From Owenia fusiformis (taxonomy: Eukaryota; Annelida; Polychaeta; Sabellida; Oweniidae), in the NCBI GenBank assembly GCA_903813345.2, contig CAIIXF020000001.1:43863366-43927365 (forward strand): a stretch of 64,000 bases of DNA. The letters run 5' to 3'. Shown here piece by piece: positions 19,001 through 38,000 of this stretch (within the stretch, counting starts at the first letter, position 1; each line of letters begins with the position of its first letter). The notes under the pieces were generated by a model. That model did not search any database and had not been told where the DNA came from. It worked only from the letters and a program-made list of their open reading frames with translations. A program made the position numbers and the translations under genes.

Positions 19001-22000
19001 TTAAATCATTGCAATGTTTAATATTATAACTCATGAATTTCAATTACAGGGACAACATACACTGTGAGTTGACAACGTACATTTCTGATTTTTTAAATTA
19101 TACCAAATGTATGAATATTTATTAAATCTTAACCCGTCTTTAATTGTGCAGTTTAGAGAAACACATTCTCATTAAAATATTTGACACTCTGAGACGTCAG
19201 GGGAGAAAATTATCAAAGGAAATGTGTAAAAAACAACATTTTTCCAACCGAACAATTGTATGGGTAGACGTACAACGAAAAAAATCGAGCACTGCTCGAA
19301 GATCTTTTAACGTAATTAGAAAAATAAATGTCTTTGAAATCGAATACACGCGAAATCAAACAGGAAATCCTTTTTGTATTCCTCAAATTTATTTTTGAAA
19401 ACCTGCATCAAACCTACATCATAGTCTTTGCTTAAAATCAGTTAAAAGTGACATAGTACATCAAAAGTGTACTACGGCATATTTTGTCACGGTCACGTGA
19501 CTGTACCTTGTCGATGGTTAGGCGTGATGTATACACTACAAATATTACATTAATAACTAGAAAATGTGATCTGAAAAATATTAGAAACTACAAAACATAC
19601 TGGTGACACATAATCAATAAATTAAAACTTAATTGTGAAGTTATAAAAGAGATATAATTTATAGAAATCAATTATTTAGCAAACATAACATAGATTGAGT
19701 ATAAAGATATCAAAGAGACATGCCTGGGGGTGGACCTGATGCTCCCATGCCTGGGGGTCCCTGGCCCATGGGTGGTGGAGGGGGAGGTGCAGCACCAATG
19801 CCTGGGGGTTGATGTGCAGGAGGAGCATCTGCAAACAGCTGATGGGGTCTGTCAGCCTGAGATAATGGATTCTGCGCAGCAAGTAACCTCTCTAAAATAA
19901 AACGGTTATATTGTGATGTAACAGTCATATTATACATTCCCTACATCTACGTGTACAATCTGAACACTTAAAAATTGATGGAAACCATAACTAGCTCTGG
20001 ACATAAGTGACTTTGAGAAAATGTGAAACCAAAACTGATGTTTTGTATATGGCAAAGTATCCCATCCTGGTTTATTTATAAATTGACATATGAATTCTTC
20101 AATCAATTGTGGTCAGAATTGTGATGAATCTTACAGTATATTTACAGTAGATCTAGAATAATTAAATGACAAAATATAAAATATTCGATAAGCCATTTCA
20201 CAGCAAATACAGAGAATATGCATACCTGCAGCGGACCCGTGTCTCTCTCCTTTGCTGTCTTTTTTAAATGCATATGAGATTGATATAGCTCTGTTACATA
20301 AATATTGTCCATTCATGGCTTCTATGGCAGCATCTGATGTTTCAAAACTTGCAAAGTTAATAAAAGCAAATCCTTTACTGTTACCAGTGTCTGGGTCTCT
20401 CATAATCTGCAAAGGAAATCATTTTGTGTTTGAAATTTATCTTGAAGGCACCAATTTGTTTTCTTTCTTGATACATGTTATATTAGCAATAACTATATGT
20501 ACAGTGAGTTTATTTCTTCACTTCCTGTAACAATTATGAGAATTTATGTATCCTCTTACAACGCACAATTAATATTACATGAAGATTCTTACATAATTTT
20601 ATTCATAATATCAATAGATATCTATTAAAATAATGATGGGACTTGATACATGTGACCACCTCACCATCAAATTGTTGCTTTGACAAAAAGTTGAACTTAC
20701 TTTTGGAGTTTGTAATATCACACCAAAGGCGCTAAATGTGTCATACAGTAATTTTTCATCCACTTCAGGATCGAGATTTCCAATAAATATATTTGCTCCG
20801 ACATCAAGATTTTTCTGATGAGCTGATGCCTGCAATTGGAATTGCGAACATGGATTAATAATCATACATGTAATAAAGAACATAAAAAACAGCAGAGAGA
20901 GAACTGTGTATATGAAACACCTTCAACAATGGCCAAAATAATTCTTTGTAGACAGACACAATCATGCTCAGTATAAAGTGTTTTCAGGCAGCAGGCCTGT
21001 TTTCTAATTCTCAAGTGAGTGCTCCCCTTGTTTCAAAGCTGCACCGACCCCTACACAATAGTAAAAATGACCTACTGGTATGTTCAACTTACAGACTACA
21101 CATACCTTATTTACACGAACTGGTTTTCCATATAATTTTATCATATTCATGATTTTTATGGCATAATCTGCATCTTCTTCACCAAGGAACTCAACAAAGC
21201 CATATCCTTGATGAGACTGAGTCACACGGTCTTTAGGCATATGGACATTCACTGGAATTAAATGACAAAAGCATATAACTTTAAAATCATGCTTATGCTT
21301 CAACAATGACACCATAATTAGTAAGGAACAGTTCTTACTCAAAAAGATTACTTCCAACTGAACTGTCTACACTTTATCATAGCTAGACATATAATGTTTC
21401 AGAAGAGGGATCCTTGTACACTCACCAACAGGTCCTGCCTGTAAGAACAGCTCCCATAATATAGCTTCTGATACCTTGTCATCAAGACCTCCAACATACA
21501 CAGTGGCATCTGCAATTATAAGAAATAATTATCATATATTATAATAAAAAATCTTCATGAAAGGAAGATCTATAGTAAATGCAACAGACCTTTTTACATT
21601 AAAGTAATGCAATACATTGTACTCCTGCAATTGTCAATTTTCCTTTAAGAAATGCTGGACCTCTATCAAACACATTTTTAAGTTCCATTACACCAAACAC
21701 TTTAGAAGGGGGTGTCTCTGAATTTATTATTAGAAGCAGATTTGCATGGGGTAATACATGGCATTCTCCTTGGCCAGAACAGCAATAGAAACTCACAAAA
21801 GAAAACAAAATGTTCTCATTCTGCCTTGAAACTGGAAGTAGGATGTGCTTCAATCAAAGTTAAAAAATAAACATTAAAAGGAACATTACAAGTGTGATAG
21901 TCTATGGAAAATACATGCATATTTTAAATGCAACCTATTACAGTCTATTTCACTTACATGTTACACCAAAAGCAATCAAAAGGCCACAGTTCAGTATCAA

Positions 22001-23323
22001 ATAGACAAATACATTCATATTTTACACAAAAAATATTGTTTTTTGGATTGCTTGTGATTTGGCTGAAATTACCCCCATAAATATGGGGTCGAATTGGCGT
22101 TTTTTCTTATTTTTTAATATTCTAGTGCCAATTCTCCCCCACACTTAAAACCCATTCCTTATCGTGTACCTGGGTACCTTGGTAATTCAAGTAGAAAATC
22201 CAAACATAAATAGGCAGTTTCCTTACCTCTTCTCTTGACTTTTTTGACAAAACACCTTCCCCGAAGTTATTAATGATTAATGTATGTAAATGATGCTATG
22301 TATCGGCAACTATTCAGATTAATGTGTGAGCCTCCAATTTTTGTGAGATTTTTGAAATCTGAACTAGTTTCTACTGCATTGTGGGATTACTGAGTTCCGG
22401 TCTGAAGCTGGGTAAATGTAAAACTTTTGATGGCAAAACGAAATTACCTTGTGATATTTACAGAAAATGGCCATGTCAAAAATATGCAAGGCAGGGGTAA
22501 ATTTGTATTTGCTTTTGATAATTTCAAATATTCCCTCCATTTTACTTTTCGATTATTTGTGATTTCGTTTTTCGTTTTGTTACACATTTCGATATGTAAT
22601 ACGCTACTGCGCATGCTCAAAAATTAAAAATGGAAAAATTATCTTGTTATCCGTAATAAATCTTCGATAAAAGACTAAATACTTGAGGCTACAAATAGTA
22701 TCATATTGATGAAGAATCATTTGTGGAAACGAATATCGTAAAAACGTGAGTAATACCTAATTATTTATCAATAATTTCAACTTTCTTTCAACTTGCTTTG
22801 AAATTCCTCCGAGATACACGATAAGGAATAGGTTTCAAGTGTGGGGGAGAATTGGCACAAGAATGATAAAATATAAGAAAAAACGCCAATTCGACCCCAC
22901 ATTTATGGGGGTAGCTGAAATATACAAACATTTTGCATGTAAAACGTAAATGGATTTTCCATTTGATACTGGACCTTTTGACTGCTTATTTTTCAAGTTT
23001 TGTGTATTGGTGAACAACCTAAGTGAAATGGACTGTATAATATATAATTCATCTCTATACATAGCCAAGTTCAAAAACGTTTGAATAACGTTTAGATCTG
23101 CCTGTTCATATTTTCGAAGACCAAAAATAAGAGCACATTTTTTTTATAAACGGAGTATAAACCTATTTATCATCGTATACGATCTACATAAACACACAAG
23201 CGGCAACCCATGATTATATTGTATCCGTCTTGCAATTATCTAACTCATCTATTGAATGAATAATATAGAAATCACGAATAATAGTGTACCTTGATTTCTT
23301 TCGGCTATCGGGCCGGCCGCCAT
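16049..23323 (-). CDS. SF3B4: SF3B4, splicing factor 3b subunit 4 (10 exons, complete)
   Basis: Subunit of the SF3b complex of U2 snRNP; binds pre-mRNA near the branch site. Exons 5' to 3': 23323-23290, 21509-21426, 21251-21106, 20829-20701, 20406-20226, 19891-19724, 17289-17149, 16889-16740, 16513-16388, 16194-16049; 434 residues (human 424). [20 protein letters not shown] opens RRM1; RRM1 ends near [11 protein letters not shown] and RRM2 contains [20 protein letters not shown] and [20 protein letters not shown], then [20 protein letters not shown]. The rest is Pro/Gly/Met-rich repeats (PPPPGM) ending GGPPPQW. All phases agree provided exon 6 uses a GC donor. Start is fixed by the conserved N terminus. 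The intron after exon 1 holds an 840-bp MITE; the intron after exon 6 holds a 2.2 kb transposon. Head-to-head with PLEKHJ1. Confidence 0.97.
17334..19526. mobile_element. CACGCC-terminal transposon, copy 1 (2193 bp)
   Basis: Terminal inverted repeats of about 75 bases begin CACGCCTAACCATCGACAAG and continue through GTACAGTCACGTGAC and GTAGTACACTTTTGATGTAC. They are flanked by a 6-bp direct duplication ATGTAT (17328-17333 and 19527-19532). The interior has no transposase; 18066-18697 is a second, nested MITE. Its right half (TCGAGCACTGCTCGAAGATC) resembles copy 3 at 53859-55376. It sits within an SF3B4 intron. Confidence 0.85.
18066..18697. mobile_element. nested Tc1/mariner-like MITE, 632 bp
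   Basis: Inverted ends CAGTGTCCCAAAGTATG and GGGTGTCCCGAAAGTATGGG (minus-strand reading), continuing through CCTAGGCAGACATATACCAA and TGTCTCCATAGTATGTGTCA for more than 100 bases. TA flanks both sides. A 109-codon minus-strand reading frame inside resembles nothing I know and is probably chance. Confidence 0.8.
22072..22911. mobile_element. TA-flanked foldback MITE in SF3B4 intron 1, 840 bp
   Basis: Inverted ends CCCCCATAAATATGGGGTCG and their complement continue through GAATTGGCG, then more loosely through GCCAATTCTCCCCCACACTT and ATCGTGTA, about 100 bases in all. TA lies on both sides. No coding content. Confidence 0.85.
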
Positions 23324-23709
23324 TTTAACTGTAGTTAATTTATGAACAACTAATGATTTGTATTGCAATATTATCCGTATATTTATTGGCAAATGATATC
23401 AATACAAAAGAACCATTTTATAAATTAATTAATTAGATAATCTTTTTCAATCTTTCCAATATTTTTTGTGGATGTTTTTTCTAATTTCATGGTCATTTGA
23501 ATGTTGAGGCGTTGTCGAACCAGTGTCGAACAAAGAAAATCAAAGGCAGATGAAAGGAACGTTCGCTTTTTCAAAGAATATATTTTACGACAAGATCGTC
23601 CGTCAGTCGTTTGGCGTGACGTCATTTTTATAAAATACAACAAATTAAATTTGAAGTATCTCACTTTTTAAGTCGCTCCTAGTATCCTAGATAGAGTTTT
23701 CATATTATA
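23324..23709. promoter_or_regulatory. SF3B4 upstream region, remains of a divergent promoter
   Basis: These 386 bases are all the non-transposon sequence between the SF3B4 start codon and the element at 23710. With that element removed, the SF3B4 and PLEKHJ1 start codons would be about 400 bases apart and divergent, typical of a shared bidirectional promoter. No TATA box is obvious; GGCCGGCCGCCAT spans the SF3B4 start. Confidence 0.5.
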
Positions 23710-24013: not shown

Positions 24014-24654
24014 ATAACTTAATTGCAAAATATTGTAAATATTAAGGATAAATCTACCGTTTCCCTACAAACAGATCGTAGTTTGTCATTTTTAATTTTT
24101 CAAAAGGAACACAAACTTGAGCGTTATACATATTGAAGGAATTTACAACAAGATAACATGATAAATAGGTTAATAGGATGACATATTTGGCTCATGTTTG
24201 ATAACTACTGCTCAATTTACCACAAAGTGGGCGTGGCACTTTTTGTTGTTATTACAATTCCAAATAATTTCATGTTGACAGAATCATATTTACAAGGGTC
24301 ATTAATACATATGTAATTATCTGGAATGGTGAGTCCAAATATCTTTTGTCAATTGGTTGCCATAGTAACACAACATATTGTATGTGAATGTGAATCGTGG
24401 GTAGAGGTCATTTCAGGCAATCCTTGTTAATCTTAATTGTTTATTACATTCATCCTTAATAACTGTTTTAGTGTATGATCTTTTTTAACAAATACAGGTT
24501 TGGATAATATTGATATGCGTTTGCTATGGTAACACAACTAATAATGCTGTTTCTTGAATTACTGCACTGTTTGTTCGTCTGCCCGCCCATCTGTCTAAGC
24601 ATTTCCTGACCTATTAATTAATCACAGATTGGTGTTATATGTGACAAAATGGTG

Positions 24655-26335
24655 ATTCTTGACATCTTAGACTCAAGAAGATATACCAACTTAGACCCTG
24701 TACGCTGTATCAATCTTAGATTATGGATATTCTACCCATTGTAGACTTTGGAGGATGTACCCATTAAACACTAGAGTCTACAACCTCTAAGACTCTAGAG
24801 GCTGTACCATCTTATATCTATTTATTAATCACATATTTATGTTATATGTGGCAAAATTGTTATTCTTGACATCTTAGACTCTAGAAGATTTATCAACTTA
24901 GACTATATAGGCTGTATCAATCCTAGATTATGGATGCTGTACCCATTAAACACTAGAAGCTCTGGAGGCTATACTCATTGTAGACTCTTGGAGGCCGTAC
25001 CCATTGTTAACTCTGCATCTGGAAGATGTACCATCTTCTCTCGAAGGCTGTTCCAAGAACTCATCAAAGGTTCTGGAGGCTATACCATTTTTGACTCTGG
25101 AGACTATACCCATTGAAGACTCTGGAGGCGATATCATCCTAGTCTCTAGGAGGCTGTACCCATTGTAGACTATGGAGGCTATTCCATATTAGGCTCTTGG
25201 AGGCTATACCATCTCAGACTCTTGTAGGTTGTACTATCTTAGACTCTTGGAGGCTGTACCTATCTTTGACTCTTGACTTTCATAGAAATCATAGACTATT
25301 GTGGCTGTACTATCTTTGGCCCTAGAGGCTGAATCCAAATTAAACTCTGAAGCTATGCCATATTGGTCTCTGGAGGTTGAATTCATATTATACTCTGGAT
25401 GTTGTACCATATTAGACGCTATGGGCTGTATCAATTTTAAATTATAGAGGATGGGTCATCTTAGACTCTCGGAATTGAAGGTTGTAGCCATTATAGAAGT
25501 AGATGTACCCATTAAACTCCTGAGGCCATATTAGACTCTAATTGTTAATATTAGTCGTAGGCTATACCATTTTCAACTTTGGAGGCTGAACCATTTTAGG
25601 CTCTGAAGGCTGTACCATCTTAGATTCTGGAAACTGGTCCTATGTTATATCGAGAGGCTGTACCATCTAAGGGTTGGAGGCTGTACATGTTAGACTCTTG
25701 GAGGCTGTACTTATCATAGGCTGAAGGATCTACCATCTTGGGCTCTGGAGACTGAACCCATGCTATATCTGGAAGCTGTACCATCTTAGACTCGTGGAAA
25801 CTGTGCCTATCTTAGCCTCTGGATGCTATAGCAATCATAGCCTCTGAAGCTGTATCATCTTAGACTCTGGAGACTGATTCCATGTTATATCTGGAGGCTG
25901 TACCATCTCAGACTCATGGAGGCTGTACCATCTTAGACTCATGGAGGCTGTACCCATCCTAGGCTCTGAATGCTATAGCAATCATAGCCTCTGGAGACTG
26001 ATCCCATGTTATATCTGGAGGCTGTACCATCTAAGGGTCTGGAGGCTATACCATCTTAGACTTATGGAGGCTGTACTGATTCTAGGCTCTGACTACTATA
26101 GCAATCTTAGATTCTGAATGTTATATCATCTTGGACTCTGGATGCTGAATACATATACTACTTGAGGCTGTATCATATTAGATTCTTGAGACTGCATTAA
26201 TTTTATACTCTTGAGGCTGTATCATCTATATACTCTGGAGGCTGAACCAACTTAGGCTTTTCTGAACTATTCTATAGTCTCAGGTTCTACCATATTAGAC
26301 TATTGGATGACATGTTCTTGGTATTGAAGGACACC
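24655..26335. repeat. degenerate 25-30 bp minisatellite, about 1.7 kb
   Basis: Some 55-65 imperfect units of the form GGAGGCTGTACCATCTTAGA then CTCTT, in one orientation, with variants CCCATTGTAG and CCATGTTATATC and some higher-order grouping. It forms the core of the element at 23710-27110. Reading frames across it are interrupted, so no protein is implied. Confidence 0.85.
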
Positions 26336-27122: not shown

Positions 27123-30100
27123 ATGCGATTTAATGAAAAGGATATACGATTTTTTGCGAAGTCAAGAAAAGCTGATAAGGAAGGTCGCCTAAGCTACAAA
27201 ACTCAAAAGGAAAGTAAGTGTCACATATTACAATTCCATGTGCAGTTGGGGACAAAAATAAATGACAGGTCGATTTTCGATCACCATTTCCTAATTATGG
27301 TCGTCTGAAAGCCCATAATTTCCAATATTGTCTAGATACATATCCCTTAAAATTTGTATATTTCACATTTTGTATTATCTCATCCACTGATGTATGGCCT
27401 CTTGAAAATTCTCTTATTTTTAACATGGGAAATTCTCACTTCAGCAAATCCACCTGTCATTTATTTATGTCCCGAACTGTACTTATCCCGTGCCAGGACT
27501 ATAGTCCTGGACTGAGCCCAATCTTTTGCCTTTACGATTACAACTTGGGAGAATTATCTTCGCCCCTTACACTTAAGATACTTTCAATAGATTTCTTGGT
27601 ATTTTAGCATTCTTTTCGTGTAGAATCCACAATTGTCAAGATGGCGGTTGGATTTAAAAGGGGTTTCCCCGTTTGTCTGGCCCGGAATTGGCCTGGAAGT
27701 ACCAATAAATGGAAGAATTTGACGGTTTATATAAGCAAATATTGCGATCAAAAACGAAAATTTCTTCGTTCTGCCACTGAACAAAAATAATGTCAACATT
27801 GAAATCCCCTGGAATTTCCTTGGAATTTCGCGAATTAGAACTGTAGGAATTTTGTGACTATTATATTTTGCGAATTTTCCAAAACTTGCGAAAAGTGCGA
27901 AATATAGTAGCGCGCGAAAATTACCGGGCATACAGTATAGAGCAAATTTGTTACATCTTGCTAAGAATTTGAGTTTTGATCCTTAAAAGTCATTTTTTGT
28001 TTCAAGTAGTTCTCTAAATAAGTGTGTTTCTTGATTTTTGAATAAAATTCTAAGGAGCTGTACTCCTTAATACTAGAGTGAAACTCATTAACGTATTCAT
28101 CCTTGCAAATAGGCAAATAGTTATCATACCAATCACAATCTCTTCTATAAATTACATCATCAAGACCTCGCTTACACAGTAGTTCTTTAACGGCCCTTTA
28201 ACATTAGATACATACTTCCATGAAGCTTCATTATCTTGTTCAAAGCACTTCCTGAGTGTGCATAATATTTTGTGTGAGAGGAAAGTCTTACTGGCTTGAG
28301 GCTTTGCACATAAAATAATCAATAAAACGTTTTCATAAATCCCACGTATAGGGCTTCAACAAAGATCTCAAATCAAGGCTGAGTGGGCAGGTTTGCATTA
28401 TAATTGAAGTACTGCTTGAGCTGCTCTATATTGGATAGACTTAAGGGTTTTATTTGATTCTTTCCTTAAGGTAGACCATATTGAGCAGCTGTGAAGTATC
28501 GCTGGTTCGAGCATTGACTTGTATATAGTGTTTCCAAATTCAATTCGATTGACATTGCAATGTTTTGTAAGAGTTGCTGAGGTACAGTATAATTATACAT
28601 TTTACGTGCCTTTTCCTTCACAAAATTATTAATATGATGTGAGTTTCTTTTTTTACGGTCAATTTGCTTTCTTATCACCATAATTTTTGGGTTTTTTTCT
28701 GCTGAATTTAAAGCCCCATTTAAATTCACAGTTTGGAGAAGAATTTTCAAATCATATTCATCTTTTCCCAAGAGAACAATGTCATCCGCGAATAGCAAAC
28801 ATGGAATACGCTCCTTATCAAGATTAACACTGAGATTAGTTTTCATCAGGCTGTTTTTTTGGTCTGTCATCACAATTGAAAAGAGAGTTGGAGAGAGAAT
28901 GCACCCTTGCTTGACACCAACATCAGATTCAAACCAGTCTTTGCAAAAATTGCAAATCATCCAAACTTTTAAATAAAGGTCAAGACATGATATGCATGAA
29001 TGTTGTACAAACTTTTTTCTTCAAAAGAAGGAACTCTATATAATTCCTATTTGATACATTCTCTTAACAAATATAAGGTTGTATACTGTACATATACATG
29101 TGGATGATCCATAGATTTTCGATGAATACAATTATTTGTAATGAATAAGATATTTACAATCAAAATGTTTGACAGTTCCAATTGAAAATAGTTTAATTTT
29201 TCTTATAGGCTATAGACAGAAATGGGTAAGACTGCAAGGGAACATGCTATTCTACTATAGATTAAATGATAAAGGAATGCTATCAGATTCAGAGGTAAGA
29301 TCAAAAGCTTAATTTCTGGTCTATCTGTTGTGATTACAGAGTGGACCAAAATGGTCGCTTTGTAAGAGGCCAAGTACTATACCTAAACATTGATTGTACA
29401 ATGTCAGTATAATACAATCTTACGCATACATGTGCATTGTAAATACCGTGTACATGAATTGCAAGGGATACATAGACTGTATATTATGTAAAAATCAATG
29501 TCACATTTTATCATGAATAGAACCTTAATAAGCAATGTTTAGACAGCATTCTTAAAGTCTCTCAAAATGTATTAAGACTTTGATCCAACCTTTAGTTGAA
29601 GTCATTCAGTGCCTATCTCAAAACTCTGCCTACTAATTTCCTGGATGATTTTAATGTACATGTCTTTAGTAGTATTGTTGTTGTTCTTGTATATAATTCC
29701 TATACTTTTATGACCTTTTTGATAAAGAACAAAATTGTTTCTTTTTAAGGTTTAGAGAGAAAATAAAAAAATGTTCAATTTCTCTCTTTTCAGCCTCAGT
29801 TTGCATTTGTCCTGGAGAGATATACAGTCAAGATAGAACAGAATGCTGACGCTCCATTTGCGTTTTCATTGTGTAAGATATAAACATTTCTATGTGATCA
29901 ATTATAATACATGTTATGGGCAAAAATCACATTTTCCCTTTGATAAATTACTTAATAAATATCTACCTACATATTCTTTAAGTATTATAATTTGTTATAG
30001 ATCGTTACTGTGCAGATTATAATTGAATTCATATTTGCTGTTTTATAACATTCTTCAGTATTTGCTGGGGATGGACCAGAACGGAAGCATATATTCAGTG

Positions 30101-33100
30101 GACAGACTCTACAAGCATGTCAAGAATGGGTGGAATGTATAAAAAAGGCAAGGTAATCACTGCATCTTTATTCTGTACATTCTTTATTTTCTGGGGTTCA
30201 AATTTCAAAATTTCCAATTTTGCATACTTTCAACTGGTAAACTACAAACTGTATATGTTTGCATTTTAAAATATTTATTCCACTTCAAGTAAGTGCTTTT
30301 ATGTAAATGAAAACATTTTGAAATGTACTCTTCAAGATATCCTATAGATAACATATATTATAAACAGTACAGTAAACTCGTCAGATTGGGGGTCATTTAT
30401 CACATAGCACTTGTAAGGTGTTATAAATTACTTGTCAAACATCATATAACACTCCTATGTGTCTATAGGGATTGTATTAGACTTCAGATTTGATACCATT
30501 AACGCTCTGAGAATCAAGAGTGGCATTTTTCTCATGGAGTAGTTTTCCTGAAAATACTTAAATTTATAACAAAGGGAAACATTTTGAAATAATTATGAAA
30601 CTTTTTTGAATTTATAGATTTCTCTGATTTCAAGTATGAATGTTTAAGATTTTTATCGTACCTAAAAAAAGGTACGATATTGTCGTCAGCTTAGCGGGCA
30701 GCTGGCTGCGTCTCACTTTTTTTGTCATCACGATTCCAGGAAAACCACTCTGCGGAATTACTTCAAATTTTTACACATGTTACAAGATAAGAAGTTCTAG
30801 AACTGATTAACTCGGTGGCCATCTTGCATTCTGGCTCCCATCTTGGACGTCTTTAGATTAATCTTGTCATCCTGGCCCGTAGCCATGGGGGGGGGGGGGT
30901 TCGCAGAGTTTGGGCGATCCCCCCCCCTGGCCAAAAATTCTTTCAAAATCATGCAGTTTTTCACCATTTTGAGCACTTCTCAAGTGATTTTAGCCATATT
31001 TTGGACAAAATTGTCAAATGTGAACCCCCCTGGAAAATTTTGAAAACTGAACCCCCCTTGGCAAATCCTGGCTACGGGCCTATCATAGTTATTCCAGGAA
31101 AACCACTTGAAGAATTTATTTCAAATTTTTACACATGTTATAACATGGTAAGAAGTTCTAGAGCTAATTAACTTTTCGGCAGCCATCTTGCATTCTGGCG
31201 GCCATTTTCGAAGTTTTTAGATAGATAAATCTTGTCATCGCAATTCCAGGAAAACCACTTTAGAATTTATTTCAGATTTTACACAAGTTACATGGTAAGA
31301 AGTTCTAGAACTGATTAACTTTTCGGTGGCCATCTTGCATTCCAGCCGCCATTTTGGAGGTTTTTAGATAAATCTTGATTTATGAACTTAATGGACTTGC
31401 TTCGGAGGCCATCTTGATTTCTGGGTCAACAAGCCCACACTGCTATGTTTTAGATACGATATTGTTCACCCTGTGCTTTATTAAAACGGATATGACAAAT
31501 GTTTTTCACATCAATAGAAGAATTTATTGTATACACTGGTTGATGTTCCCCTACCCTCTCAGGACAGGCCTCATGAAAAATTGGGCTGGTACAATAAACA
31601 CTGGCCTTTCATAGCTGGTAATTCTCAGATTTCTGAGTGAGTATATTAGAAATCAGACCAGGATACAGTATCTGTTTTAAGAAAAGGAAACTAAAGCACA
31701 CATCAGCAAATCATGCAGAAGTGTCACTTTATTCAAATTAGCCTTTAATACAATTTACACATTTTCAGTATGGAACATCTGCAATCCTACATCTATGACC
31801 TCCAGGCAAAGATCATTAGCATCACTGGAAAGGTAAGAAATAAATGAGTAAAATTAATAAATAAGTGACATATGAAATGATTTAAAAATGAATATACAAT
31901 GTCGCAATGTATCTGCATTTTTATAGGTATATTATTGCCAGTATTGTTTTCATTGAACTAATATTGAAATGAATTGGTTATTTCATTTGTTGTATAAATG
32001 CCCCAACCAACCAATTTTTTCCAGGAAATATACCATAGTTAGACTACATGTATATGTATAAATGTTCTATTCATTTGATATTATTAGGACCCATTGATTG
32101 AATTGAGACGGAACCCTCATAGGTTTCTAGGACGTCCAGCAACATACCATTCGGACACACAATCTAACAATACACAGATCACAACCCGGCCTGTCTCGGA
32201 GCCTGTCAATTCTAATACACCGCTACAATCAGGTATAGCGTTGGTAGATTAAGAAGCTCTTACTCCACCCAGAAAATTTTATATTTGACATGAAATATTT
32301 CTTTTCAACTTTTAAGTCTTACTCAGATTTTCATTGGATGGCCTTTACCTAATGTATAATGTATATTTTGAATAAAATCAAAGAAAGTCTTTGAATTTTG
32401 CTTTTTTATAATGTATATTTTGAATAAAATCAAAGAAAGTCTACTTCTCTTAAGTTATTTGAATTTTGCTTTTTATCGTACCTAACAAAAGGTACGATAT
32501 TGTAGTCAGCTTGACGGGCGGGCGGCGGGCAGGCGGCGTCTCACTTTTCAGCTTGTCTACAGGTTTCCAGCCAAACCATTTGAGGGATTCATCTGAAATT
32601 TTCAGGGATGTTTCTACATATCAACGTCAAGAACTGATTAGTTTTTGGGCATTTTGGGTAAATCTTAAGGTGGCCATTTTGGTTTTTCTGTCCTAAAATC
32701 TTCACTTTCAAGACTTGTCTACAGGTTTCCAGCCAAACCATCTGAGGGATTCATCTGAAATTTTTAGGGATGTTTCTACATATCAACGTCAAGAACTGAT
32801 TAGTTTTTGGGCATTCTGGGTAAATCTTAAGGTGGCCATTTTGGATTTTCTGTCCTAAAATCGTCACTTTTAAGACTTGTCTACAGGTTTCCAGCCAAAC
32901 CATTTGAGGGATTCATCTGAAATTTTCAGGGATGTTTCTACATATCAACGTCAAGAACTGATTAGTTTTTGGGCATTCTGGGTAAATCTTAAGGTGGCCA
33001 TTTTGGATTTTCCGTCCTAAAATCTTCACTTTCAAGACTTGTCTACAGGTTTTCAGCCAAACCATTTGAGGGATTCATCTGTAATTTTCAGGGATGTTTC

Positions 33101-35092
33101 TACATATCAACGTCAAGAACTTTTTAGTTTTTGGGCATTCTGGGTAAATTTTAAGGTGACCATTTTGGATTTTCCGTCCTAAAATCTTTACTTTCAAGAC
33201 TTGTCTACAGGTTTCCAGCCAAATCTTTTGAGGGATTCATCTGAAATTTTCAGGGATGTTTCTACATATCAACGTCAAGAACTGATTAGTTTTTGGGCAT
33301 TCTGGGTAAATTTTAAGGTGGCCATTTTGGATTTTCTGTCCTAAAATCTTCACTTTCAAGACTTGTCTACAGATTTTCAGCCAAACCGTTCAAATTTTTT
33401 ACATATGTTACACAGTGATAAGTTCTAGAGCTGAATAACTTTTATGCGGCCATCTTGCTTTCTTGGTCAACAAGACCACAATGCTGTGTTTTAGGTACGA
33501 TATTGTTCACGTCTGTGCCTTGTTGTATGAGTGAAAAGAATTCTGGAAAATACCAACATTTCTACTGTTTTTATGTATAAATAGATACAATTTAACACAT
33601 TAGCACTATGAAATGTTTTTTTCCTATTTTTGTAGGGAGTACAACTAAATGGCACACAGAGAAAACAGATCAGACCAAGGTGAAACCAAGCAGACCTGCC
33701 CCTAATATACCATCTAACACTCCCACTGTACCAACATCTTCCCATAAAGAGTCCTCAACTTGGGATCCTTTTGATTCATCTGACTACAAATCTGACCATT
33801 TTGGCATGGACTCATTCAAACCTAATAATGAGAACAACATATCTAAACATTATCCATTTGGCCAACCATCAAAATCTGATCCATTCGGTCAACCATCAAA
33901 TTCTGATCCATTTGCCCAGTCATCAAAATCTGATCCATTTGCCCAGTCATCAAAATCTGATCCATTTGAACAGTCATTACAATCTGATCCATTTTGTCAA
34001 CCATCAAAATCTGATCCATTTGCCCAGTCATCAAAATCTGATCCATTTGGTCAAGCATCAAAATCTGATTCATTTGCCCAGTCATCAAAATCTGATCGAC
34101 TTGGTCAACCATTAATATCTGATCCATTTGAACAGTCACTAAAATCTGATCCATTTGAAGAGTCATTAAAATCATCAAAGTTTGACCCATTTGAACAAAT
34201 GTCAACAAGAGTGACCTCTGTTGATAACAAAAAGTCTAAAGATCCATTTTTGGATTTATCTGGCCTTCCCTCAGACAAGCAAGGAACTGGCAGCAAAGGG
34301 GTGAATACAAATCTGCCCAGCAACTTGCTGACTCCCGCGAATCAGCATCAAAATATAGGAAGACACTCAACCAATGAAACATGTTCAACTAAACAAGATC
34401 CATTTGGTTCCCTTATGAATACAACAGCTGACCCATTAAACTTTTCAAACAAATCAGATCCATTTGGATCTGTTGCTTCGGACACATTTCAACCCTTTGC
34501 TGCAAAATCAGCTGATCCTTTTAGTTCTAAGCCAATGCAAGTAAGGCCTTCAAGTGTTCAAATGAATTTTGCAAATAGGCTACCAGGTTCTTTCAGTTCG
34601 AATACGGCATCATTTGGGAACACACATTTACATTCCAATCAACAATTCAATGGCAAACAAACTCCCTTTACGTCTAATCCGCCATTTGGCTCCATGCCTC
34701 AGATTGGTCAGCAACATCAACAGCATTCCATGGGGGTACCCCGTCCCCAAGGCAACATGGGTGCATGGCAGGACAATAAAAGTGCATTGCAAGCTAGCAC
34801 TGGTGCATGGCAAGGCAACACAAATGCATGGCAGTCTTCAGTTCAGCCAGTCCCAAACAGAACAGCTCCTCAACCCCCAACAAGCAGTCAGAACAAAGGC
34901 AAGAAAACAGGTAAAAGTCATATCACTCTATACTGAAAGCATAGTTGTATGAAGATCTATCTAATATAAGAGTAATTTGATTCAATGCTTAGCATTATTT
35001 TTGCATATACATTTTTTACTTTAATACATATATGACATTTTTAGTGACACTTTTAACCAATTCATTTCAATTTCTCAGAAAAAGCTACATGA
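27123..35092 (+). CDS. PLEKHJ1: PLEKHJ1-type PH-domain protein with DPF-repeat tail (8 exons, complete)
   Basis: Exons: 27123-27213, 29209-29294, 29794-29872, 30059-30152, 31769-31832, 32088-32232, 33636-34910, 35079-35092; 615 residues, all phases consistent. The start MRFNEKDIRFFAKSRKADKE matches vertebrate PLEKHJ1 (MRYNEKEL...). A PH domain follows over about residues 15-140: RQKWVRLQGNMLFYYRL, PQFAFVLERYTVKIEQNADA, ERKHIFSG, QACQEWVECIKKAS, then IISITGKDPLIELRR as in PLEKHJ1. Vertebrate PLEKHJ1 is about 149 aa and stops there. Here a further 430-450 residues follow, mostly in one 1275-base exon: 15 DPF motifs (residues about 230-480), many as SDPFxQ/SKSDPF repeats, then Gln/Asn-rich sequence with three (G/N)AWQ motifs and a basic end. 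DPF is the established AP-2 alpha-appendage ligand, so a role in clathrin-mediated endocytosis is inferred. No stop or frameshift breaks the tail. Confidence 0.9.
27950..28960 (-). pseudogene. LINE reverse-transcriptase fragment
   Basis: The minus strand encodes WFESDVGVKQGCILSPTLFS and CLLFADDIVLLGKDEYDLK, the fingers/palm QG..LSP and catalytic (F)ADD motifs of non-LTR retrotransposon reverse transcriptase. It has no complete N terminus; past 28466 homology-like sequence continues with stops and frame changes to about 27950. It lies antisense in PLEKHJ1 intron 1 and is non-functional. Confidence 0.8.
30655..31480. repeat. hairpin-headed tandem-repeat element, copy A (PLEKHJ1 intron 4)
   Basis: Opens with the hairpin ATCGTACCTAAAAAAAGGTA followed by CGATATTGT and GTCAGCTTAGCGGGC. 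Then come about four units of AATTCCAGGAAAACCACT, TTACACATGTTA, AGAAGTTCTAGA and GCCATCTTGCATTCTGG. It closes at TAGATACGATATTGTTCACC. Same layout and orientation as 32472-33515. A separate 207-bp MITE interrupts it. Confidence 0.8.
30874..31080. mobile_element. 207-bp MITE with GGCCCGTAGCCA ends
   Basis: Inverted ends GGCCCGTAGCCATG and its near complement CTGGCTACGGGCC enclose G-rich and C-rich tracts (GGGGGGGG, GAACCCCCC). It splits a repeat unit of the surrounding element: the broken unit continues on the right as TCATAGTTATTCCAGG. A similar GGCCCGTAGCCAGC end occurs alone at 53469. Confidence 0.65.
32472..33515. repeat. hairpin-headed tandem-repeat element, copy B (PLEKHJ1 intron 6)
   Basis: Hairpin ATCGTACCTAACAAAAGGTA with CGATATTGTAGTC, a GGGCGGGCGGC run, then five nearly identical units of about 160 bp (CTTGTCTACAGGTTTCCAGC ... 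GGGATGTTTCTACATATCAA ... GGTGGCCATTTTGGATTTTC). It closes AGGTACGATATTGTTCACG. High unit identity suggests recent expansion. Confidence 0.85.
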
Positions 35093-38000
35093 AACATCAC
35101 AGATTGTCACATCGGGAACTCAACTTATCCCCATTTCAACCTGCTTGTTTGCATAAATAATTCATTTTCCAATGTTGTAAACATGTATAAATGTATGAAC
35201 TACAAATGTAATTGCAGATGACCTGTTGATTAAGTTCTAGAACTTATTGGCTTACAAGGACATCAACGTTAATAAGGACATTGATGTTAATAGTGACACT
35301 GACTTCACATGTTTCACCATAGGCATGAACTTGAAGTCCGTCCAACAACATGGCATGGCATTTTTAGATCTAGAGAGATCTAGAAAGAGGGAACTTCATT
35401 CAATACACAACTGTGCTTTGGCCATTATTTATTAAAGAATAGGACATTATGGAATTATATGGACCTGTGATGAACATAAATATAACATATTAGTTATCCA
35501 TTATTTGAGCAATTCTGTGATATAGCATGTTTAGTATAGTATAATTTATAGGAACATTGCTTCTATTAATTAGATATTATTCGATTAAAACCCATTGAGT
35601 TTTTGCTTCTTTCATGAAATAATGTCTTATTGTAAAATTGCTGTTTAAGAAAATTTTGCACTGTTGAAGTGATTTTTTGTCAATTTCCCAAAAAGTTGGA
35701 CATTCATATTTCACCATCACGATTCACACAGCCACTTTGTTTAGAACTTTCCATGCAGTAATCAATAAGATTGGGTCTCGTAAATTGGAATGGAAATTCA
35801 CAATTATTTATGAAAGTGGCTCACTGATTTAATCTAATTTATCTAGTGATGTTTGTAAATGTCTAACATTTGCAGATCTACTTTCACATATATTTTATTC
35901 AGCGCAATTTTAATGACATGCTCACAAAAACATATTGCATGCAAAATCTTCTAGCTTTACAGTAAAGTGTCATATAAAATATTTAAAACTCCATTGAAAT
36001 ATATCAATATTATGTAATTAAATAGTTATTTAAAATTATTAGAAGGCAGTTCTGTACTGTTCAGAAGCACTTTGTTCAATAAATACTGTACTGGCAAAGA
36101 TGGAATGTTTGACTTTTGGCTTGAATTTTGTACTGTTCACAATCTGTAACTATTTTTGCGAACTCTTTTTTCACTATTGGCTATCTGTTACAGATAATGC
36201 AGATTTCATAACATTTACACAATGTTTCAAAATGATGACGGAAGTATGTAAAAAACAGATGTAGTTTCAAAGATTGGGGCAAAAAGGCAAAGGGCAGACA
36301 GCAAATTAAAGAATGTTAATTTCTCCACCATCTTGTAAACTCAAATGTTAGAAATAGTACTTTCAAGCTTCTTTGGCACTAAACTGGTACTGTACTCGAT
36401 TACTCTGAATCTGTTTCGGTAACAAGATGGCTACAGTTCCGGTTAGAAAGGTCAGGATTTTCTTTTTCATTGATTTCTCAAGATGATAGCATAAATTCTG
36501 ATCTTTTCGACACAAACATGTATAAGCATCGTATGTTTCTGAAAATGCAACTGATTTCACACAAAATGGTTTGTAGGACAGAACCCTCCATATAGTTCCT
36601 CTCTTTAGTTACATACAAACAGTAGGTGTGAAAATTTGAGGTTTCACGAACCCCTGACAGATCCCCTTGGAAGGCTAAGGTCATAATCCCAGGTCAAGGT
36701 CACCAAAAGGTGATTTAATGGCTACACTTCTACTGAACACGAAATAAATAAACAAAATTTAAGTTTATTTCTATATACCATAAAAGATATAGTATTATAT
36801 TATGTATATGTAATCACAAAACAAAAAACATGTTATTCAAGTACAAAATGATCACAATACCAATTATAGCCCTCTAAAACTCTATATGATAAATCTGTGT
36901 ATACATAGATATTATCCATACAAATATCATTAAAATACATTTGAATTTATTACTAAACATACTACAGAGTTGTAAAATGTATCTGCGATGTGGACATTGA
37001 TAATAATTAAACAACAATTAATAAATATATAATACTATTACTACAAATAATTTCATAAGATAATATTAAACATTCATTATGCAATTTTGTATTGCTAAAT
37101 TGTCAACTATTTGTGATATATCGTGATTGATGACAGTCATATGATAATGAGTATGTCAAATTATAAAACGCCATGTTAAAATGATCTATACATATTATGT
37201 GAGAACTAACATTTTATGGTGGTGTCATATTAAAAATGTTGTACTAAAGTCATTATAAATGGTTGCTCTCTGCTGGATTCTCGTTTATATTATCCATATC
37301 ATAGTTCTGAGGCTCCAAATATTATTTTCATAAGTTAATTAAAAGAAATAATACAACACTTTTATTTTGGGAAATCCAACAATAAAAACAGAAATTAAAA
37401 CTAAAATTTTTTTTTTTTTTAAATTGCCAAAAACTAGAACATTGAGTTGCACTTAACTTGTATACCCTACATCTCCATAGCAACTAACAAAAACCATGGA
37501 GAATCACTGACTCATTGCAATCTTTCGAAGAAATGGAAACATGGAAATGTGAACAAACTGTACAAATCATGATTCTGAAGACATTTTGAAGCATAATAAG
37601 CAGCTACTTACATTGTTTTCTCATTGCTCTTAGAGTTATCTACACGTCAATTACATTGTCTGTTTGTAAACACCGGTGTATAAGTTAAATTGTAAAATTA
37701 ATTTTAGATGAAATGTAGGTAACAACCATGTAGAAACTGATTTCAATACATGAAAGTTTATATGTGAGATGTATAATGTATAACATATATGTATGATATC
37801 TTTTGATATTTATAGTTTATGAATGCATTATTTAAGATAATCTCTCTCTTACTATCCATGGTGGGTTCATTATTTTAACACACACACACGCACACATAAC
37901 TTCAGATCCACTAGATAATCAAAAGTACATATTTGTCTCTTAATTTCTAAAATATACCCTTTCACACTTTAGTACATGTACTACACAGTATTAAACTTGC

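Follow-up and report, generated by a model that had tools for sequence, protein, structure and literature searches.

Vertebrate PLEKHJ1 is a protein of ~149 residues, which in its human form ends soon after a TGKDPL block; going by this human sequence, we know of no vertebrate PLEKHJ1 that carries a DPF tail. Among monomeric endocytic adaptors, epsin, AP180/CALM and Dab2 share one layout, in which a membrane- or cargo-binding globular head (ENTH, ANTH or PTB domain) is followed by a disordered tail with AP-2 hooks. NUMB is built in the same way (PMC11889595). For Eps15, fifteen DPF motifs are given for the disordered region, a nanomolar Kd was measured for a region with several DPFs, and a Kd of about 100 µM is cited by Shimada and colleagues for a single-DPF peptide on the AP-2 appendage (PMC4731787). 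W840 is the centre of the DPF site on the AP-2 alpha appendage (PMC5694535). Ma and colleagues reported that FCHo1 recognises the triad DPFx3DPFx2DPF, while for AP-2 single DPFs suffice and their spacing is not strict (PMC4921775); two consecutive DPF motifs are a ligand of the mu-homology domain (PMC4731787). PHETA proteins are called endocytic adaptors (PMC7272357). The phosphoinositides listed as ligands of human PLEKHJ1 are PI(3,4,5)P3, PI(4,5)P2, PI(3,4)P2, PI(3,5)P2 and PI(5)P (PMC8282632); lipid binding is the one function named for it in the passages on it in PMC8282632 and PMC2871058, and no PH-domain protein bearing a DPF array was described in the titles and abstract beginnings of the open-licence literature searched.

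The window (64,000 nucleotides of Owenia fusiformis, the whole stretch of DNA that was analysed) contains a gene that is PLEKHJ1 by the features tested, the margin over PHETA being small, and we put at roughly 60% the probability that its product is a phosphoinositide-plus-AP-2 endocytic accessory protein with a disordered DPF tail. The gene was modelled on the + strand at 27123-35092: 8 exons, 615 residues encoded, all introns GT-AG, no internal in-frame stop; the reading frame ran unbroken across all 7 junctions to a TGA stop that ends at 35092. Exon 1 (27123-27213) starts with MRFNEKDI, which was aligned with the human start MRYNEKEL; exons 2 (29209-29294), 3 (29794-29872) and 4 (30059-30152) encode the PH domain, as placed by the gene model and the genome search; exon 5 (31769-31832) holds the end of the PH domain and the next segment up to TGK; exon 6 (32088-32232) starts with DPLIEL, the first three letters of which complete the TGKDPL block, and continues into a 45-residue extension. 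Exons 1-6 comprise 186 whole codons; the tail takes the other 429 residues of the model, opening with a residue whose codon is split. Exon 6, ending at 32232, was joined in phase to exon 7 (33636-34910; DPF tail; gene model, open frame and coding score) and this to exon 8 (35079-35092; final codons and stop; AATAAA at 36078). The borders of exon 7 are tttttttcctatttttgtag/GGAGTA (acceptor) and AAACAG/gtaaaagt (donor). The sequence-only reading had placed this exon at the same positions and in frame through normal splice sites, and the GT-AG introns and the absence of an internal stop in the model bore it out; from these signals we infer that the PLEKHJ1 part is spliced to the tail as modelled.

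The PH domain was recognised by Pfam at residues 19-117 (43.1 bits; cut-off 25.1). Pairwise scores were obtained with provisional human PLEKHJ1 and PHETA1 sequences, no tree being built: the window protein gave 34% identity over 143 columns and 73 bits with human PLEKHJ1, the best match of the sequences compared, and 67 bits both with human PHETA1 and with a PHETA-type gene of the same genome. Like vertebrate PLEKHJ1, the window protein has the N-terminus of the MRxNEK type, the PH domain, the segment that follows it and the TGKDPL block; unlike vertebrate PLEKHJ1, it adds the 45-residue extension and the 429-residue DPF tail. The PLEKHJ1 identity proposed earlier is supported by the 73 bits, a small margin over the 67 bits for PHETA, by the TGKDPL block and by the absence of the F&H context of PHETA. 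The PHETA-type gene (L001:1447-2256, on C12) consists of a single open frame (269 residues) that contains FDEMHLEF, an NPFDS segment and no DPF; its FDEMHLEF presumably fits the F&H OCRL-binding motif. The related PH-plus-helix family of PHETA1/2 (sesquipedalian, FAM109, IPIP27) differs here from the window protein, which lacks the F&H (FxxxH) motif as PHETA has it near the C-terminus: its sole F...H, FGNTH, lies at 513 in other surroundings. Assignment of the window gene itself to PHETA was rejected, a separate PHETA-type gene being present that pairs with human PHETA1 at 153 bits. A genome search with residues 1-187 listed 7 matches, namely the six exons of the window gene and the PHETA-type gene; no tailless PLEKHJ1 copy was among them. 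A close relative of the PH part was not found among solved structures (best E 0.039).

Exon 7 codes in one frame only. The model frame holds no stop; the remaining five frames hold between 12 and 40 each. The training set of the codon log-odds (865 codons, set against intron triplets) was drawn from exons 1-6, from the frame of the PHETA-type gene and from the Eps15-like exon described below, and since it includes a DPF-rich exon it favours the array more than the other parts of exon 7. In the model frame the three parts scored 0.14, 0.29 and 0.18; in both other forward frames the values were negative. The highest value among the intron controls (48 overlapping 735-base windows, one frame each) was −0.19.

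Fifteen DPF triplets were found in the tail (0.2 expected from composition; never above 3 in 20,000 tail shuffles), 10 of them inside an array of 27-bp (9-residue) units at 33842-34201 (+ strand) and 5 outside it. Of the 12 nine-residue units of the array, 10 carry DPF, one carries DSF and one DRL, and unit 12 is displaced by three codons; tandem periods are 27 bp (11.9 copies) and, at higher order, 54 bp (5.7 copies). Before the array lies the first DPF segment, WDPFDSSDYKSDHFGMDSF (33761-33817, +), and past it are four scattered DPFs (34241, 34397, 34457 and 34514; range 34241-34522, +). Near the end of exon 7 stand the repeats GAWQ/GAWQ/NAWQ (34760-34840, +), with a 21-bp repeat at 34748-34833. 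The sequence-only reading had named 15 DPF triplets, with ten packed into a dense SxSDPFxQ array, unit-level duplication of this array and W-containing repeats: the count was confirmed, the duplication is seen in the two tandem periods, and the three [GN]AWQ words with the 21-bp repeat account for the last; the ten array DPFs also stood, while the strict string SxSDPFxQ fits 6. SDPF occurs 10 times in the protein, 9 times in the array and once at residue 461. Serine or threonine is found three residues ahead of D in 9 of the 15 DPFs and directly ahead of it in 10, which may be a setting for phosphorylation.

The tail is probably disordered: charge and hydropathy place it on the disordered side, and AlphaFold2, run on exon 7 alone as a single sequence, gave a mean pLDDT of 43.9 (weak evidence by itself), the [GN]AWQ stretch being the sole one made helical, with low confidence. 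No recognised domain was found in the tail by Pfam, no relative among solved structures at E up to 10 and none in viral contigs. Search of the genome with the tail, in which 98 of the 128 candidates were scored and which does not thereby prove a single copy, listed besides its own locus six weak matches of 29-43% identity. On translation of open frames, one (L006) proved to be a low-complexity repeat without DPF and another (L007) an RDPYAR-type repeat with two DPFs; around two more (L008 and L009) there was no open frame with two or more DPF, and the last two adjoin L006. Among the matches listed, none resembles a retrocopy or a repeat family.

The NPFDS segment of the PHETA-type gene resembles the first DPF segment of the window protein. 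Residues 220-247 of the latter aligned gap-free with residues 168-195 of the PHETA paralogue (11/28 identical; score 53, or 39 once the xPF triplet was left out), the match being short and the sequence serine-rich. Shuffles of the PHETA tail reached 53 against residues 188-262 in 0/300 and 1/3000 cases and against the whole tail in 12/1000; the remaining 14 DPF windows in the tail all scored 20 or less against the paralogue, and the 16 DPF windows of the Eps15-like exon 19 or less. This likeness is suggestive of common ancestry and is not proof of it. The DPF/NPF tail might, then, be ancestral and lost elsewhere rather than newly invented here. A fuller history can be drawn from this, tentative and on balance doubtful: PLEKHJ1 and PHETA would descend from one PH-domain endocytic adaptor with a [W/F][D/N]PFDS...DxFG tail segment; PLEKHJ1 of the annelid lineage would have kept this segment and amplified it to an AP-2 scaffold of Eps15 scale; vertebrate PLEKHJ1 would have lost the tail, the role of the human protein being a remnant of AP-2 endocytosis; and use of the exon-6 donor would regulate the 192- and 615-residue forms.

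The first of these two forms gives rise to another account of the locus. If the exon-6 donor were left unused, reading through exon 6 (32233-32252, +; DNA reading) would add the end ...QSGIALVD and a stop at 32252, and a tailless form of 192 residues resembling vertebrate PLEKHJ1 could result. Since this shorter product would be a complete protein and polyadenylation-like signals lie past its stop (AATAAA at 32371 and 32423), the tail could be a minor form, and an in-frame ATG at 33608, shortly before exon 7, would even allow a start there. That the 192-residue form ending in intron 6 is the main PLEKHJ1 product, and exons 7 and 8 a separate small gene or a rare splice form, is nevertheless unlikely. 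Past the ATG come a polypyrimidine tract and an AG, which are acceptor-like and in the right phase; the intron 6 donor has a U1 pairing energy of −7.2, about that of intron 1 (−7.5) and intron 4 (−6.6), and a weak exon-6 donor was dropped as a candidate, the remaining six donors of the gene spanning −4.3 to −9.6. A separate gene would, moreover, encode a tail in which neither a recognised domain nor a solved relative was found. The partial match to the PHETA paralogue speaks for such a segment belonging behind this PH domain, and because there the PH domain and the segment share one frame, it also favours a link between exons 1-6 and exon 7. If the joined form with its tail is retained, the array within it could still have arisen by neutral tandem expansion of 27 bp in a coding exon of low complexity, its DPFs being carried along without a selected function: its units are highly alike in DNA, show the 27- and 54-bp periods, and have lost DPF in 2 of 12 cases. 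We hold this to be very improbable, since outside the array there are 5 DPFs in 308 residues (shuffle mean 0.085; at least 5 in 0/20,000 shuffles) and since amino-acid changes are rarer in DPF codons than in their flanks: non-synonymous departures from the consensus codon, 3/36 in DPF codons and 21/72 in flanking codons; Fisher P 0.015, an optimistic value, the units sharing ancestry and the test treating them as independent.

A selected tail leaves the choice of partner. One exon of an AP-2 alpha appendage was matched on C6, and six exon pieces (L014), read and joined by eye with junctions not individually checked, matched alpha-adaptin appendage structures (1b9k) over 214 residues at E 7.1e-82. 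The DFFxRWK stretch, which we take to hold W840, is conserved in this appendage; the ligand named in the sequence-only reading is accordingly encoded in the same genome, and the surroundings of its DPF site are kept. An exon on C2 (L011:2350-3639, terminal, 430 codons) has 16 DPFs including a DPFx3DPFx2DPF triad, and looks like Eps15 by the two EH-domain matches that adjoin it, its DPFs and an apparent ubiquitin-interacting end, no tree standing behind the name. DPF gaps in this exon: 3, 10, 7, 3, 6, 3, 8, 3, 10, 3, 2, 45, 3, 3, 3; in the window protein: 35, 6, 6, 6, 6, 6, 6, 24, 6, 9, 16, 49, 17, 16. The smallest gap of the window protein is thus 6 residues, and a closely spaced pair or triad (gaps of 2-3), as for FCHo/SGIP1, was not found in it. 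In the number of DPFs the tail (15) is like Eps15 and the Eps15-like exon; unlike the window protein, Eps15 has EH domains, no PH domain, and closely packed as well as spaced DPFs. With its DPFs in a predicted disordered region, the window protein has the motif pattern of an AP-2 alpha-appendage ligand (several DPF/DPW or FxDxF motifs), the binding itself being predicted, and the spacing favours AP-2 over the FCHo/SGIP1 mu-homology domain: because gaps are at least 6 and single DPFs suffice for AP-2, the tail should prefer AP-2, with avidity. Weighing against AP-2 binding are the weakness of a single DPF as a ligand (Kd about 100 µM) and the use of other partners by some DPFs. It could instead be that the tail is real and its DPFs mainly serve other partners, such as EH domains or the mu-homology domain of FCHo proteins, or that they act away from AP-2 pits. 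EH-domain matches and two mu-homology domain matches are present in the genome, and binding of the REPS1 EH domain to a DPF of NUMB is reported (PMC11889595). We nonetheless give such partners a small chance, NPF, the usual EH ligand, not being found in the window protein by simple patterns, and no DPF gap below 6 occurring in it, whereas the FCHo1 triad (PMC4921775) is found in the Eps15-like exon of the same genome.

For the AP-2 accessory protein that we prefer, the following course may be proposed. The PH domain would sit on phosphoinositide-bearing plasma membrane; the C-terminus of ~430 residues, disordered, would present its 15 spaced DPFs to the appendage platform of AP-2 alpha; a single tail could hold several AP-2 complexes through avidity; and membrane-tethered clustering of AP-2 would follow, presumably at clathrin-coated pits, in the manner of the distal DPF region of Eps15. 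The layout is that of epsin, AP180/CALM, Dab2 and NUMB, a globular membrane- or cargo-binding head with AP-2 hooks in a disordered tail; unlike in these proteins, clathrin-binding motifs were not found in the window protein by simple patterns. Regular-expression scan of the window protein: no clathrin box, NPF, FxDxF, DLL or DxFxxFxxxR; no match to L[IVLMF]x[IVLMF][DE], PWxxW or DLL, such simple patterns leaving room for atypical motifs; one WxxF word, WDPF at 229, which is the first DPF itself. No cargo-binding module was identified in the protein either, and the earlier proposal of a clathrin adaptor is not supported in the full sense of the term. 'AP-2 accessory protein' is the safer name and is preferred because the simple patterns gave no clathrin motif.

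If the tail form is real, AP-2 hooks as many as those of Eps15 would give the little-studied PLEKHJ1 a testable endocytic role, and a PH-headed member would join the set of AP-2 accessory proteins. One genome would also offer a natural test of a DPF spacing code, the Eps15-like exon having tight spacing of the FCHo type and the window PLEKHJ1 not.

The genome has three erythrocruorin-linker-type matches, in keeping with its being probably that of an annelid, and the 28 PH-domain matches listed lie on contigs C1 to C12. The surroundings of the gene were read as follows. No Rfam family reached the gathering score within 18000-40000. Intron 1 contains on the minus strand (28466-29020) a reverse-transcriptase-like open frame (FADDIVLL), probably a retrotransposon remnant. 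In intron 6 a 162-bp unit is tandemly repeated 5.2 times (32541-33387) inside a dispersed-looking repeat, and a similar repeat was seen by eye in intron 4 near 30655-31480. The left, divergent neighbour is an SF3B4 gene (19700-23330, minus strand); for human PLEKHJ1, a bidirectional promoter is cited that it shares with SF3A2, another SF3 subunit (PMC2871058). Upstream of the gene, at 24600-26330, lies a long degenerate repeat, by eye of the type 'ggaggctgtaccatcttagactct'.
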